NCBI GenBank assembly: GCA_022842205.1
Contig: JALHQA010000007.1
Location: forward strand, 62,001-126,000
Direction: 5' to 3'
DNA length: 64,000 nucleotides
Source of the DNA: Hyphomicrobiales bacterium
Lineage (GTDB): Bacteria; Pseudomonadota; Alphaproteobacteria; Rhizobiales; Methylopilaceae
Shown in pieces: positions 3,414 through 7,578 of the stretch. The position numbers and the translations under genes were made by a program. The notes beneath the pieces are model-generated. The model was not told the DNA's origin. It worked only from the letters and a program-made list of their open reading frames with translations, and did not search any database. Position 1 is the first letter of the stretch, and each line of letters opens with the position of its first letter.

Positions 3414-4151
3414 TCAGCCCGGCAGCGTATCCGTATCCTGCGCCATCATACCTCGTGCGGACAGCGTGTCGCCCGAGGCGAAATAGCTGTTCGCCAGAAG
3501 CGCGGCTTCCGTGCGGTTGTTCAGGCGGAATTTCTGCAGGATGCGATGGAGATGCACCTTCACGGTGTTCTCCGACATGTTGAGTATGAACGCGATCGTC
3601 TTGTTCTGCGCGCCTTCGCCGACATATTTCAGAACTTCCTCTTCGCGTCGCGTGAGCTGACCCCCGCCGCCATTTGTCTTGCCGGAGTGCGCACGTGCCC
3701 GATATGGACGCACGGGAGTGTTGCGGTCGCCGCCATTTCGCGGCGGAAAACTCGTCCCGCCAAGCATTACAAGACGCAGCGTTGCCGCGGCCAGATCGAG
3801 CGGCATGGATGTCGTCAGATAGGCGCTTGCGCCGCCTTCGATGGCGGCATTCAGCGATCCTTCGTCCCCGCATTCCGACAACGTAACGACAGGAGCGCCA
3901 CGAAGCTTGTCCCGCGCAGCCGCAATTTCCGATTTCAGGAAAGCGGGAGATGAACGCGGACCATCGATGTGCAGGAGCGCGGCACGCAGATGATCCGTCG
4001 TATGGCCGACAAGATCGTCGATGGCTGCAACGGCGATGACAGTGATACCGGGAAGCGCCTCGCTGAACGATCGAAGCAAGGCAACCCGCGTGAGGTCACG
4101 TCGATCGATCAGGACGACAACCGGGTTTCCGTGGGCCTGGACGCTGACCAT
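3414..4151 (-). CDS. LuxR-family transcriptional regulator with degenerate receiver domain
   Basis: 245 residues. The C-terminal ~60 residues form a LuxR/FixJ helix-turn-helix (LTRREEEVLKYVGEG, then NMSENTVKVHLHRILQKF). The N-terminal ~130 residues have receiver-like hydrophobic spacing and keep an acidic pair (D16 and D19 in IDRRD), but the position normally holding the phospho-accepting Asp reads LLHIDGP, with His in its place. The conserved Lys near AYLTTS is also missing, so phosphorylation is doubtful. No sensor kinase lies nearby. It is divergent from the Trp/Lys-repeat secreted protein gene across 246 bp and is its natural candidate regulator (inference from position). Start chosen at ATG 4151, with GGAG nine bases upstream. 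Confidence 0.85.
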   Translation of the reverse strand: MVSVQAHGNPVVVLIDRRDLTRVALLRSFSEALPGITVIAVAAIDDLVGHTTDHLRAALLHIDGPRSSPAFLKSEIAAARDKLRGAPVVTLSECGDEGSLNAAIEGGASAYLTTSMPLDLAAATLRLVMLGGTSFPPRNGGDRNTPVRPYRARAHSGKTNGGGGQLTRREEEVLKYVGEGAQNKTIAFILNMSENTVKVHLHRILQKFRLNNRTEAALLANSYFASGDTLSARGMMAQDTDTLPG

Positions 4152-4205
4152 GGCGGTAGCTCCGCGCTCGTCCCCCGCGTGAACCCCTCCTGCTGCAATG
4201 TTGCG

Positions 4206-4233
4206 AGCGTATCTAAAGGTTGAGTGCTGTCAA
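4206..4233 (-). promoter_or_regulatory. Candidate promoter for the LuxR-type regulator
   Basis: On the minus strand a consensus -35 TTGACA (complement of 4228-4233) is followed after 16 bp by TACGCT (complement of 4206-4211), a poor -10. Placement about 60 bp before the regulator's ATG is reasonable. The weak -10 keeps this tentative. Confidence 0.35.
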
Positions 4234-4365
4234 TTGTGAAACAGTAACCACTTTTGATTATTGCCGCGCGGAGCCGCTGTGTCTCGCCAAACGTCATCCC
4301 AACCAAGTAGCCTCAACTAGCCAGCACCGCGTTTATTGCTAAATAGCGCCAATTTTTCTGAAGCT

Positions 4366-4393
4366 TGTCTCCGGCTGGGTACAACTGGAGACA
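4366..4393 (+). promoter_or_regulatory. Leader hairpin sequestering the Shine-Dalgarno of the Trp/Lys-repeat protein
   Basis: TGTCTCC (4366-4372) pairs perfectly with GGAGACA (4387-4393). Adding the G-U pair 4373/4386 and the G-C pair 4374/4385 gives nine pairs closing a ten-base loop. The right arm contains GGAGA (4387-4391), the only Shine-Dalgarno for the ATG at 4398. A folded leader would hide it, as in RNA thermometers or other translation switches. The structure is read from the sequence; a regulatory role is inferred. Confidence 0.55.
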
Positions 4394-4397
4394 CGCC

Positions 4398-5306
4398 ATG
4401 CAATACAGCGTCACAAAGATTGCTGTGTTCTGCGCATGCACGGCAGGCGCCTTTTTCCTCGCCTCGCCGGGGACCGCGCAAACCGATCCGTATCTCGATC
4501 AGGCCAGCTACCGGGAGCTTTGCTTCGACCAGTGGGGCAATCCCCGCATCACGCCCGAGAACGTCGAAATCTGCTCACAGCTGCCGACGGCAACGATCGC
4601 ATCCTACAGCGTCGATTCCGGCGACAGCGGCCTGCCGGAGGGCCCGGGTGTTGCTCCGCCGGACCCCCCAAAAAAGCACTGGAAGAAGCACAAGAAGCAT
4701 TGGAAAAAGTGGGGCTGGAAGAAGGAACACTGGTCCAAGTGGGACAAGAAGAAAAAGCACTGGAAGTACGCCAAGAAGCGCGACTGGGATAAAAAGTGGT
4801 CGAAGAAGCGCGACTGGGACAAGAAGTGGGCCAAGAAACGCGACTGGGACAAGAGGAAGAAATGGGCCAAGCGGAAGGACCGCGACTGGGCCCACAACGG
4901 CAAGAATGGCTACGGCCATGGGAAGCCCGGCTGGAACGGCCGACCCGGAAAACCCAACGGACCGTCCTACGGTAACGGTTACGGCGGCAACGGCTATGGC
5001 GAGAACACCGCCTACAACGGTCAAAGCCGCTACAAGAAGGGCTTCGGCGGCTATGGCCGTGGCGGCTATGGCGGCATGAACGGCCCGACCGGCGCGGCGA
5101 GTGCAGCGGCGAGTTCAGCCAGCACGGGCTCCGGCGACGCCGCTGGTGGAACTGGCGCGGCGGGCGGCTCGACCGGCGGCGGAACTTCCGGCGCGGGCGC
5201 AGCTGGCTCCGGTGGCGGCAGCGGAACCGGAGGCGGCGCCGGGGGAGCTGGCGGCGGCGATAGCGGCGGCGGCGATAGCGGCGGCGGAGGCGACAGCGCC
5301 AGCTGA
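4398..5306 (+). CDS. Secreted Trp/Lys-repeat, Gly-rich protein of unknown function
   Basis: 302 residues; I do not recognise a family. Residues 1-27 form a Sec signal peptide ending SPGTAQ. Residues 28-90 are a short ordinary segment with two cysteines (42 and 59). Residues 91-164 are strikingly cationic and aromatic: 14 Trp and 31 Lys, with a near-perfect ten-residue repeat DWDKKWxKKR at about 129-148 and a degenerate third copy to 164. Residues 165-230 are Gly/Asn/Tyr-rich, and 231-302 are nearly all Gly, Ser, Ala and Thr, ending in GGGDS repeats. No transmembrane helix follows the signal, so it is probably exported and surface- or matrix-associated. Start chosen at ATG 4398 because GGAGA precedes it and the signal peptide begins there; an in-frame start at 4365 would lie upstream of the hairpin. 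A convergent LapG-like peptidase gene ends 62 bp beyond the stop. Confidence 0.85.
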   Translation: MQYSVTKIAVFCACTAGAFFLASPGTAQTDPYLDQASYRELCFDQWGNPRITPENVEICSQLPTATIASYSVDSGDSGLPEGPGVAPPDPPKKHWKKHKKHWKKWGWKKEHWSKWDKKKKHWKYAKKRDWDKKWSKKRDWDKKWAKKRDWDKRKKWAKRKDRDWAHNGKNGYGHGKPGWNGRPGKPNGPSYGNGYGGNGYGENTAYNGQSRYKKGFGGYGRGGYGGMNGPTGAASAAASSASTGSGDAAGGTGAAGGSTGGGTSGAGAAGSGGGSGTGGGAGGAGGGDSGGGDSGGGGDSAS

Positions 5307-5368
5307 CCGCTGCAGCGAACCGGCAAGCGGGGGAGAAGTCCCCCGCTTCGCATATCGGCCGAGTGGTT

Positions 5369-5881
5369 TCAGATCCGGCTTTCCCAGCGGGCGCCGTTCT
5401 GTTCCTTCAGAAACACATAGGAGGACGAGGCGCGGGCTCCGACCGAGCCGGTGAGGCTGTCCAGTACATACTCCTGCCGCGGCGCGGCTTCGACGATCAG
5501 CACGACATGGGACGGCACGTTGCGCTTCATCACCTGCGCAAGCCGCAATTTTCCTGGCGCGACGCCACGCTCGATCAGCATTTTTTTCTTCAGGAGAGCA
5601 AGATCCTCGCAATCGCCGGCGCTGACCGGAAGGCTCCATTTCTCCTCCACGCCGTATTGGCTTCGGTCGCTGCGCTGCTTGATGCGATTGTTGACCTCGC
5701 GATTGACGGCGCGGGCCATTGCCAGAATGTCGGCCGCCCCGGCGACCGTTCCCGTGGTCGCCGAACTGCATGCCCAGGGATGGCTGCGGCAGAGATTTTC
5801 GGCTCCGGGCGGCGTACGGGCCGGCTGGGCGGAGGCGGCGGTGGTCAAGGCAAGACCGACAAGGATTATGCGCGACAGCAT
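5369..5881 (-). CDS. Transglutaminase-like cysteine peptidase (BTLCP family, DUF920), exported
   Basis: 170 residues with a signal peptide (MLSRIILVGLALTTAASAQ). The bacterial transglutaminase-like cysteine proteinase fold is indicated by Cys91 in AGDCEDLALLK, His125 in SHVVLIVE and Asp141 in YVLDSLTG, a complete catalytic triad in the expected order. The best-known member, LapG, is a periplasmic protease that cuts large adhesins at di-alanine sites; this one is shorter, as is common in Hyphomicrobiales. It is convergent with the Trp/Lys-repeat gene, whose Gly-rich tail contains three Ala-Ala-Gly sites. A substrate relation is only a hypothesis. Family assignment is firm, function in this organism is not. 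Confidence 0.85.
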   Translation of the reverse strand: MLSRIILVGLALTTAASAQPARTPPGAENLCRSHPWACSSATTGTVAGAADILAMARAVNREVNNRIKQRSDRSQYGVEEKWSLPVSAGDCEDLALLKKKMLIERGVAPGKLRLAQVMKRNVPSHVVLIVEAAPRQEYVLDSLTGSVGARASSSYVFLKEQNGARWESRI

Positions 5882-6420
5882 GGGGCATCCTCCAGAGGGA
5901 CAGGGTCCCTGATGGCGGTTAAGGAAGTTTTCGAATGGAAGGCTGCCGGCAGATCCCCCGCCGGCGTGGCTTCCCCGTGCGTGCTGTCACAGCCGCCAGA
6001 GGCGGCAACATTGCGGCGCACAAGCAGCAATTGCAGGATTTGACCACCGCGTCCTACGAAGGATGGACGCCGTGTTCAGATGGTCACATCCACGATGCTG
6101 CCCCGGGCCCGGCCGCCCGGCGGCCAGCAGCTTGTCCCTGATGCCCCCGGCGATCGCCTTTTCATTGCGGAAATCGACATGCCGGTTCTCCCCTATGGTT
6201 CCGCCCGAGACGAGAATTCGAGATCCGGGCCGCGCCACCGAACCTCGAAATCTTGCTATTCTCCAATCATGCGCACGCGGCGATTGCATTATCGTAGGTA
6301 CGCGCCGGAATAGTCTGCCCCGGCTACCCGGCAGCAGATGCCCTCCATTCGGTTCGCTTATCAAAAATATGACAAAAGAGCGATGTTCCTGAACGGGCGG
6401 AACCGGCAGTCTGCGCGCGC
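5882..6420. other. 539-bp gap without a convincing gene
   Basis: Open frames here have unnatural composition and no recognisable product. One minus-strand frame (6076-6180, 34 codons) has AGGGGAG about nine bases before its ATG, but nothing else supports it. The region lies between two divergently placed genes and probably holds promoters for the peptidase (leftward) and the MFS gene (rightward). It could be a decayed gene; I cannot tell. Confidence 0.4.
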
Positions 6421-7578
6421 ATGATCGCCGGACGCAGCGTATTCCTTCTCGGCCTGTCCCTCCTGGTTTCCTGGGGCACGACCTATTATCTCGCAGGCCT
6501 GTTCGGCGAGCGCATGGCCCACGATCTCGGCTGGTCTCTCTCGACCGTGCATGGCGGATTCACGCTCGCACTTCTCGTCACCGCCGCGATCTCCGCCTCA
6601 ACCGGACAACTCATAGACCGACACGGTGGACGCTGGGTCATGACGGCAGGCGCCGTCATCGGCGCGGGCGGATGCGCCGGGCTCGCGCTCGCAACGACGA
6701 TACCGGTCCACTATGCCGCCTGGGTGCTGATCGGCATTTCCATGCGGCTCACATTGTACGATGCCGCCTTTGCCGCACTGGCGCGGATCGGTGGACCTGA
6801 CGCCGGTCTCGCCATGTCAAAGGTCACCCTGCTCGGCGGACTTGCCTCGACCGTGTTCTGGCCATTCGGCCATCTGCTGGCGGAACACTTCGGCTGGCGC
6901 GGCGCACTGATCGGCTACGCGCTCTGTCTGCTCGCCACGATTCCATTGCATCTTGCCCTGCCGGCACAGCGATGGGAGGCGCCGGAGCACAGGGACGGCG
7001 GGCCCGCACTGCCCGCACCAGCCGGAGCCATCGCAGCCGGGCGTCTGTACGCCCTGATCTTCGCACTCGCGCATTTCCTGAGCGCGGCGATGGCCGCTCA
7101 CCTCGTGACACTGCTGACCGGGCTCGGCATCGCACTCGCAGCGGCCGTGTCGATCGGCGGCCTGCGCGGTCTTGGCCAGGTTGCGGGACGGCTGTGGCAG
7201 GTGGTGGCCGGTGCGCGCGTCCATCCGGCGTCGCTGACCATCGGCGCGATGGCCGTCGCGGCGGCCGCCCTGACGCTTGGACTTCTTGGAGGCGCATCCA
7301 TCCCGCTTGCGGCGCTGTTCGTCGCGCTGTACGGCGCGGGCCATGGCATCGTCACGATAACTCAGGGCACATTGCCTCTGCTGATATTCGATCATCGCAT
7401 TTACGGCGCGCGCACCGGCGCGCTGCTTGTCCCGGGCTTCGTCGCGTCGGCCCTTGCGCCGCTCGTTTTCGCCCTCGTCATCGAGAAGTTCGGCGTCCGT
7501 ACGGCCATTGTGATCTGCATCATGCTCGCCCTGACCGCCATCCTCGCCGCGCTCCGGCTCCGGCGCATGCTGGGCTGA
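6421..7578 (+). CDS. MFS transporter
   Basis: 385 residues, almost wholly hydrophobic, with about 12 predicted membrane segments in two halves joined by a polar loop near residues 180-200. STGQLIDRHGGRWVM between helices 2 and 3 is the MFS signature loop. Substrate is not readable. The start at ATG 6421 lacks a strong Shine-Dalgarno. It stands 77 bp upstream of the Kef-type antiporter in the same direction and could be cotranscribed. Confidence 0.85.
   Translation: MIAGRSVFLLGLSLLVSWGTTYYLAGLFGERMAHDLGWSLSTVHGGFTLALLVTAAISASTGQLIDRHGGRWVMTAGAVIGAGGCAGLALATTIPVHYAAWVLIGISMRLTLYDAAFAALARIGGPDAGLAMSKVTLLGGLASTVFWPFGHLLAEHFGWRGALIGYALCLLATIPLHLALPAQRWEAPEHRDGGPALPAPAGAIAAGRLYALIFALAHFLSAAMAAHLVTLLTGLGIALAAAVSIGGLRGLGQVAGRLWQVVAGARVHPASLTIGAMAVAAAALTLGLLGGASIPLAALFVALYGAGHGIVTITQGTLPLLIFDHRIYGARTGALLVPGFVASALAPLVFALVIEKFGVRTAIVICIMLALTAILAALRLRRMLG

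Follow-up and report, generated by a model that had tools for sequence, protein, structure and literature searches.

A clade of exported BTLCP cysteine proteases is specifically paired with genes for exported proteins that join a constant two-cysteine head to a low-complexity tail, and the case followed here is the gene at 4398-5306 (+) of the window, the 64,000-nucleotide stretch of DNA that was analysed. The initial annotation, which had concentrated on a Trp/Lys repeat and a Gly-rich tail, overlooked both constant features of these loci: the head, with its Cys pair and PTxAI-type end, and the BTLCP protease encoded next to it. Judging from the sequences, we give about even chances to a two-gene system in which the BTLCP would cut or engage the head at P-T-x-[A/S/T]-I and thereby control a low-complexity secreted polymer.

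The head-tail gene has an ATG start and an open frame encoding 302 aa, and conservation of its N-terminal region in two congeners supports it as a real gene. The N-terminus reads by eye as a Sec signal peptide (residues 1-28; 4398-4481, +) with a putative cut near ...GTAQ, in agreement with the export proposed initially. The head that follows, C42-F-D-x-W-G-N-P-x-I-T-P-x-N-x-E-x-C59-xx-LPTATI67 (4521-4598, +), was recognised from alignments A1 and A2 and from the head profile search, and contains PTATI (4584-4598, +) as the proposed protease site. Further downstream are a lineage-specific Trp/Lys segment (residues 91-164; 4668-4889, +) and a tail that, by sequence and composition, is Gly/Asn/Tyr-rich and then Gly/Ser/Ala-rich (residues 165-302; 4890-5303, +).

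The composition that had been reported for the Trp/Lys segment was exact: of its 74 residues, 14 are Trp and 31 are Lys; the 25 other called ORFs in the first 30 kb of the window have a background of 0.99% Trp and 4.28% Lys and a maximum of 6 Trp and 11 Lys per 74-aa stretch. Across the whole window, which has 440 stop-to-stop frames no shorter than 74 aa, the combined count of 45 compares with 12 for the runner-up. The decapeptide repeat was likewise recovered, with DWDK units starting at residues 129, 139 and 149, a 30-bp DNA unit detected by TRF in 3.1 copies at 4763-4854, and a 10-residue periodicity score of 30, compared with at most 28 among 5000 shuffles that preserved composition. The Gly-rich tail is present as described, and calling the tail repetitive and flexible holds for this protein. 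No second such gene was found in the window genome (search of 2.78 Mb). The statement that no described family has this architecture also stood, as nothing above cut-off was found for the window protein in Pfam or NCBIfam, for 11 relatives in Pfam or for seven relatives in NCBIfam. A Med19 match in the family search (E 0.11) was below the cut-off and was set aside as chance, a single-sequence structure model of the head (pLDDT 66.6) was too weak to use, and Rfam and tRNA scans of the window gave 0 matches.

Whether the frame is absent from close relatives, a question left by the initial annotation, has a divided answer: among three further genomes of the genus, G002 and G003 keep a homologue and G001 lacks one, and neither G002 nor G003 has the Trp/Lys segment. 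What these two share with the window protein is a signal peptide and a head of ~26 residues, C-x16-C-xx-[LI]PTA[AT]I, for which the congener consensus is C[FY]D-x2-GNP-x-ITP-x-N-x-E-x-C-x2-[LI]PTA[AT]I. The head, with its Cys pair, is probably closed by a disulfide. Head profiles were built from three sequences and later from eleven heads (A2); the window protein fits the head pattern C-x16-C-xx-x-[P/A]-T-A after its signal peptide and scores 78 bits against A2 (E 1e-21), a profile that includes its own head.

In the order, the A2 profile detected the head in 7 of 397 genomes (best E ≤3.1e-17) and in 8 of 397 at E ≤0.001, the eighth being a weak partial match in G137 (E 5.9e-4, 16/39 positions, inside another frame) that was rejected by eye. 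Weak matches of the three-sequence profile beyond the seven head genomes (~4e-4 to 0.01) were rejected by eye; those looked at closely, 11 of which were translated, reflected signal-peptide likeness or lay out of frame. The genome of the window was the sole match to the head profile in a class sample of 385 genomes, and family searches around G275 (2/11) and G057 (3/87, one of them the weak G827) gave no further clear case. The G827 match, L160 (G827:C1:1281849-1281920), has a weak head-like DCFDRNGQHAFTPAGIGLCGQLAT (E 1.8e-4) at the end of a frame that lacks a signal peptide and may be chance or a relic. A plasmid search with the head returned one unrelated Moraxella match (E 3). The 11 head genes recovered by the profile occupy nine places, with two genes in G057 and four in three places in G275, where one gene (L161:12039-12698, -) carries tandem heads, the first of them ending in PEAVA and not in PTAxI.

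The tails, by contrast with the head, are wholly different even between congeners, being Trp/Lys and then Gly-rich in the window protein, Gly/His in G002, and PG/PD/HG followed by GGGGH in G003; those of more distant relatives are Asp-rich or built of GDT, GGTDP or GGNGGS. In the ten head-profile copies that are complete, the tails are 93-234 residues long, and long repeat tails were also seen in the proteins of family f24 and of G549 that were found through their proteases (see below). Net charge among the 11 head-profile copies runs from +26 in the window protein to -53 in one G275 copy, and 15 of 15 relatives' tails (ten head-profile and five f24/G549 proteins, with those of G290, G199 and G040 cut by contig ends) are net negative (-2 to -53). 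The window protein alone has tail Trp among the 11 head-profile copies, and none of the five f24/G549 proteins has any. Matches below the cut-off in relatives were TrAA12 (G290), SepX/GlpR (G275 C33) and, for one f24 tail, three collagen-like adhesin models; the latter tail (L228:5380-6852, +) consists of long collagen-like GDKGDKG/GGSGDQ repeats and weakly matches Lcl, SclA and SclB.

These data bear on the reading put forward initially, in which the Trp/Lys repeat itself does the work, in a matrix, adhesive or polyanion-binding protein acting through cation-pi interactions and charge, with the protease as an incidental neighbour. The extreme composition, the periodic repeat and the tail charge of +26 are what such a protein would be expected to have, but none of the 15 relatives has tail Trp, all 15 of their tails are net negative, and the protease clade is retained with the head in G000, G002 and G003, in families f41 and f29, and also in f24 and G549. 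We consider this explanation unlikely, if still worth keeping in view. As a defining trait, Trp/Lys cation-pi chemistry was not borne out, and polyanion binding does not generalise across such a range of charges; the Trp/Lys part is not what defines the head-tail protein and would represent one lineage's variant of the tail. The head-tail protein may have a matrix or surface role. Two functions suggested by individual tails were set aside, namely transglutaminase cross-linking of Lys, several relatives' tails having few or no Lys, and metal binding by His/Gly tails as the family function, other tails having little or no His.

Convergent with the head-tail gene, and separated from it by 62 bp, lies the gene for an exported BTLCP / Peptidase_C93 (LapG-family) cysteine protease of 170 aa (5369-5881, -), assigned by PF06035 (E 1.2e-32, 113.4 bits, cut-off 27), LapG structures, alignments A4 and A6 and trees. 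Its catalytic residues C91-H125-D141 align with those of the LapG structures 4u65 and 4fgo, D90 and E92 are kept, and GDC91ED, H125 and D141 are invariant in 11 aligned clade members; the roles of the triad and of the acidic Ca2+ residues are taken from the accessible portions of PMC13090378 and PMC4241560. A single-sequence model of the protease was of low confidence (pLDDT 55.6), and its Foldseek ranks 1-6 were LapG entries (E 2.7e-4 to 1.3e-3). Between the convergent stops, the fold of 5300-5375 (z -3.8) contains a GC-rich hairpin (5325-5348) that is possibly the shared terminator of both genes; the terminator scan did not list it, and scans for promoters and terminators across 4100-5950 gave nothing that exceeded shuffles.

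A convergent exported BTLCP was found at six of the nine head-gene places (the window, G002, G003, G275 C46, G057 and G096), 54-126 bp from the head gene. The G290 head gene is cut by the contig end and a clade protease, G290:C89, is located on another contig with other neighbours on both sides. No BTLCP was present among the called neighbours of the G275 C21 and C33 head genes, nor, for C33, in the 408-bp 3' flank left on the contig. Several frames in that flank (L163:15200-15607) share recurring short stretches (VKLNHL/VKLSHL, FDLISL), so that it resembles repeat DNA close to the end of a contig. Alphaproteobacteria commonly carry BTLCP proteases. Per genome these are too few for chance to account for the six pairings, with 42 matches in 23 chosen genomes and one to four in each.

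Phylogenetic analysis placed the paired proteases together. In a first tree of 40 of the 42 BTLCP matches, which left out two from G827, the six paired proteases and G290:C89 formed a clade with support of 100/98; L203, L205, L206, L207 and L210 fell outside it and were dropped from later trees. The final tree of 51 rows united 12 BTLCPs in one clade (100/100), and a head-tail neighbour was seen for 11 of these 12, as opposed to 0 of the 39 other rows (33 + 6 rows examined), within flanks of up to 1.5 kb or to the contig edge, L224 having only ~0.4 kb of flank on one side.

The protease also led to head-tail genes that the head profile had not listed. A profile of the seven proteases returned the same seven head genomes at >250 bits in the 397-genome order sample; these scores are high by construction because they belong to training rows, as are the training-row scores of the clade-trained A4 and A6 profiles, and the point is that no other genome came near. 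Next were five f24 genomes at 158-188 bits, giving 12 of 397 at E ≤1e-45. In four of these five (G199, G384, G288 and G040) the best protease copy lies beside, and divergent from, a gene whose product has a signal peptide, followed by a Cys pair and an extended low-complexity tail. The remaining f24 protease copies in the list, G362's single copy among them, lie outside the clade and showed no head-tail neighbour. A class-wide search with an eleven-protease profile listed 8 of 210 genomes at E ≤1e-38, its own genome included, with one strong new match, at 213 bits, in G549 from another order. The G549 protease gene has a convergent neighbour whose 194-aa product is exported and combines two Cys and APTASI with a tail of charged repeats; in the remaining six genomes of that list no head-tail neighbour was seen. 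All five clade members found by protease profile alone adjoin a gene for an exported Cys-pair protein with a low-complexity tail.

The heads of these five proteins have PTRAI, PTRSI, PTRSI, PVASI and PTASI ahead of the tail, those of f24 reading C..GTLEYRLCMPTRAI, CMPTRSI (two) and CGPVASI; a strict P[TV]x[AST]I occurs in 0.2-0.5% of shuffles per head, and G384, G288 and G040 are close relatives within this set of five. All heads directly followed by a tail end in P/A-T/V-x-A/S/T-I/V/T, in the form of PTATI in the window protein and in relatives, and of PTAAI, PTAAV, ATAAI, ATAAT, PTRAI, PTRSI, PVASI or PTASI in relatives. Layout and motif, and not a profile match, suggest that the f24 and G549 heads are homologous to the window head: the A2 head profile listed no f24 clade genome in the 397-genome order search, and G549 was unmatched by the head profile in the 385-genome class sample, its membership there being judged from its handle number.

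In an entropy control, minimum values were 0.81-2.26 bits at ten head-tail loci, 2.30 at G549, 3.37 at G290:C89 and at least 2.23 at 38 other BTLCP loci, of which those from related genomes are not independent. One control, L173 (2.23 bits), falls under the two weakest cases, G199 (2.26) and G549 (2.30); the next controls are at 2.38 or above and the nine other cases at 0.81-2.11. In the four control frames of lowest entropy, which are rich in Arg/Pro or Arg/Ser/Thr, G+C peaks at codon position 2, a pattern not shared by the genes considered here, and in G057, G288 and G040 the minimum belongs to an antisense or shifted frame over the tail. For the outgroup loci L236-L241 the lowest value was 2.43 (an Arg/Pro-rich frame in G490) and the rest were at least 3.18.

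Seven of the pairs are convergent and four, those of f24, are divergent; the two genes therefore form no operon. As to whether homologues keep the same neighbours, the BTLCP pairing persists and the wider flanks change: the pair is near gyrB in G000 and G002, on a contig other than that of gyrB in G003, and in other contexts in f41 and f29. An arrangement without an operon would suit a scheme in which both genes serve one envelope process, for instance capsule or surface polysaccharide control, and the protease acts on a third protein; the Caulobacter BTLCP HvyA controls capsulation, and the available portion of the 2014 text names no substrate for it (PMC4241560). However, polysaccharide-type genes, recognised by eye among the genes listed beside some other BTLCPs, were not noticed beside clade members, and the head-tail gene was the only shared neighbour noticed when the flanks of the clade were viewed by eye, and we hold a third-protein target to be distinctly improbable. 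Other genes seen in the flanks include one encoding 836-865 aa upstream of the head-tail gene(s) in G057 (L164:11394-13991, -) and G096 (L165:10307-12817, -), whose products are 61% identical and of which the G057 protein matches an AAA ATPase family (27.9 bits, cut-off 21.2), as well as an MFS transporter in the window (6421-7578, +) that is nearest to the NCBIfam ArsK arsenite exporter model (212 bits, cut-off 400).

On its other side the head-tail gene adjoins a divergent regulator of the LuxR/NarL type (3414-4151, -), as it does in all three genus genomes having that gene, the homologues in G002 and G003 being ~50% identical. By eye the receiver domain looks degenerate, without an acidic pair and with TTSMP in place of the usual Lys region. 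No regulator match at E ≤1e-20 was found in G001, which lacks the head gene, and no relative of the regulator was found among the genes called next to the f41 and f29 head genes. The divergent intergenic region (4152-4397) is 242-246 bp long in the three genus genomes and contains an invariant GTTTATTGC at 4331-4339; TTTATTGCTAAAT occurs once in the window with one mismatch allowed.

A link between BTLCPs and adhesin substrates is known already. According to the accessible portions of PMC13090378 and PMC6890996, LapG cleaves large adhesins at [T/A/P]AAG, between its two Ala, and genes for RTX adhesins frequently have a BTLCP gene linked to them. The pair described here resembles the Lap system, in which LapG acts with adhesins of the LapA, CdrA, FrhA, CraA or DvhA type, in the exported PF06035 BTLCP with its catalytic and Ca2+-site residues, in the exported partner encoded alongside it, and in a short motif containing Ala, Thr or Pro that separates an N-terminal module from a long repetitive portion. 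It differs in that the partner in the window is only 302 aa long, with a signal peptide, a two-Cys head and no adhesin domain recognised by Pfam or NCBIfam, that the junction is PTATI and not [T/A/P]AAG (T-A-A-I being similar but not identical), and that the tail sequence is not conserved even within the genus. A separate, ~300-aa type of BTLCP at L205, L206, L207 and L210 (in G003, G001, G275 and G096) stands beside genes that by eye resemble those of type 1 secretion and large adhesins, an arrangement that looks like a more classical Lap-like one. HvyA and other alphaproteobacterial BTLCPs are likewise exported and have the C-H-D triad, but the available text places HvyA in a capsule export locus (PMC4241560), whereas the clade described here adjoins the head-tail gene; it also splits from the other BTLCPs in the tree, which does not include HvyA itself. 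The collagen-like adhesins Lcl, SclA and SclB are comparable to the one f24 tail with Gly-rich GDKGDKG repeats (L228), yet the Lcl match amounts to 43.9 bits against a cut-off of 500, that tail was alone in this among the seven relatives scanned, and the window protein has no NCBIfam match. The head-tail family and its pairing with the protease are not found in Pfam or NCBIfam, for which part of the relatives were scanned, and no description of either was found in the literature searched, including the accessible portion of PMC8277102; subscription papers may hold one.

As the BTLCP is a thiol enzyme of the transglutaminase-like family, it could also act as a transpeptidase, forming an acyl-enzyme at P-T-x-[A/S/T]-I and joining the protein to an envelope amine in the manner of a sortase, with a transglutaminase fold. 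The short conserved motif between head and tail and the lack of an anchor domain in Pfam and NCBIfam scans would be compatible with this; the characterised LapG-type BTLCPs, however, are Ca2+-dependent proteases in the accessible portions of PMC13090378 and PMC6890996. In such a scheme, which we think has a slim chance of being correct, the head would be an address label and the tail an exchangeable polymer joined to the envelope via the junction, and if it were true, lineages would swap their surface chemistry (Trp/Lys, Asp, His/Gly or collagen-like) with the machinery unchanged. Slimmer still is the chance that the tail is a repeat-expansion by-product on a small two-Cys exported peptide of which the head alone is functional, a notion that tails wholly different between congeners and the DNA tandem repeats would fit, but every complete gene seen has a long tail and no head-only gene came up among the copies recovered by the profiles.

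In the two-gene system that we propose, the head-tail gene would be the variable member, its Sec-exported product consisting of a constant head, with the Cys pair and the P-T-x-[A/S/T]-I end, that carries an exchangeable low-complexity tail, and the adjacent gene would supply a periplasmic BTLCP cysteine protease of the dedicated clade. The protease would most likely recognise the head and cut at or next to the head-tail junction, and this cut would decide, as with LapG, whether the tail polymer is held in the envelope or released. The tail, here the Trp/Lys repeat followed by the Gly-rich part, would serve as a spacer or brush, or as material for a matrix, with a chemistry that has been freely altered in each lineage. 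A SUMO-peptide-GFP cleavage assay exists (PMC6890996, accessible portion). A protease clade with a constant type of neighbour names a candidate substrate family together with a short, testable motif, and the head-tail proteins would show how the chemistry of a secreted polymer can be replaced within a genus while the processing enzyme is kept.
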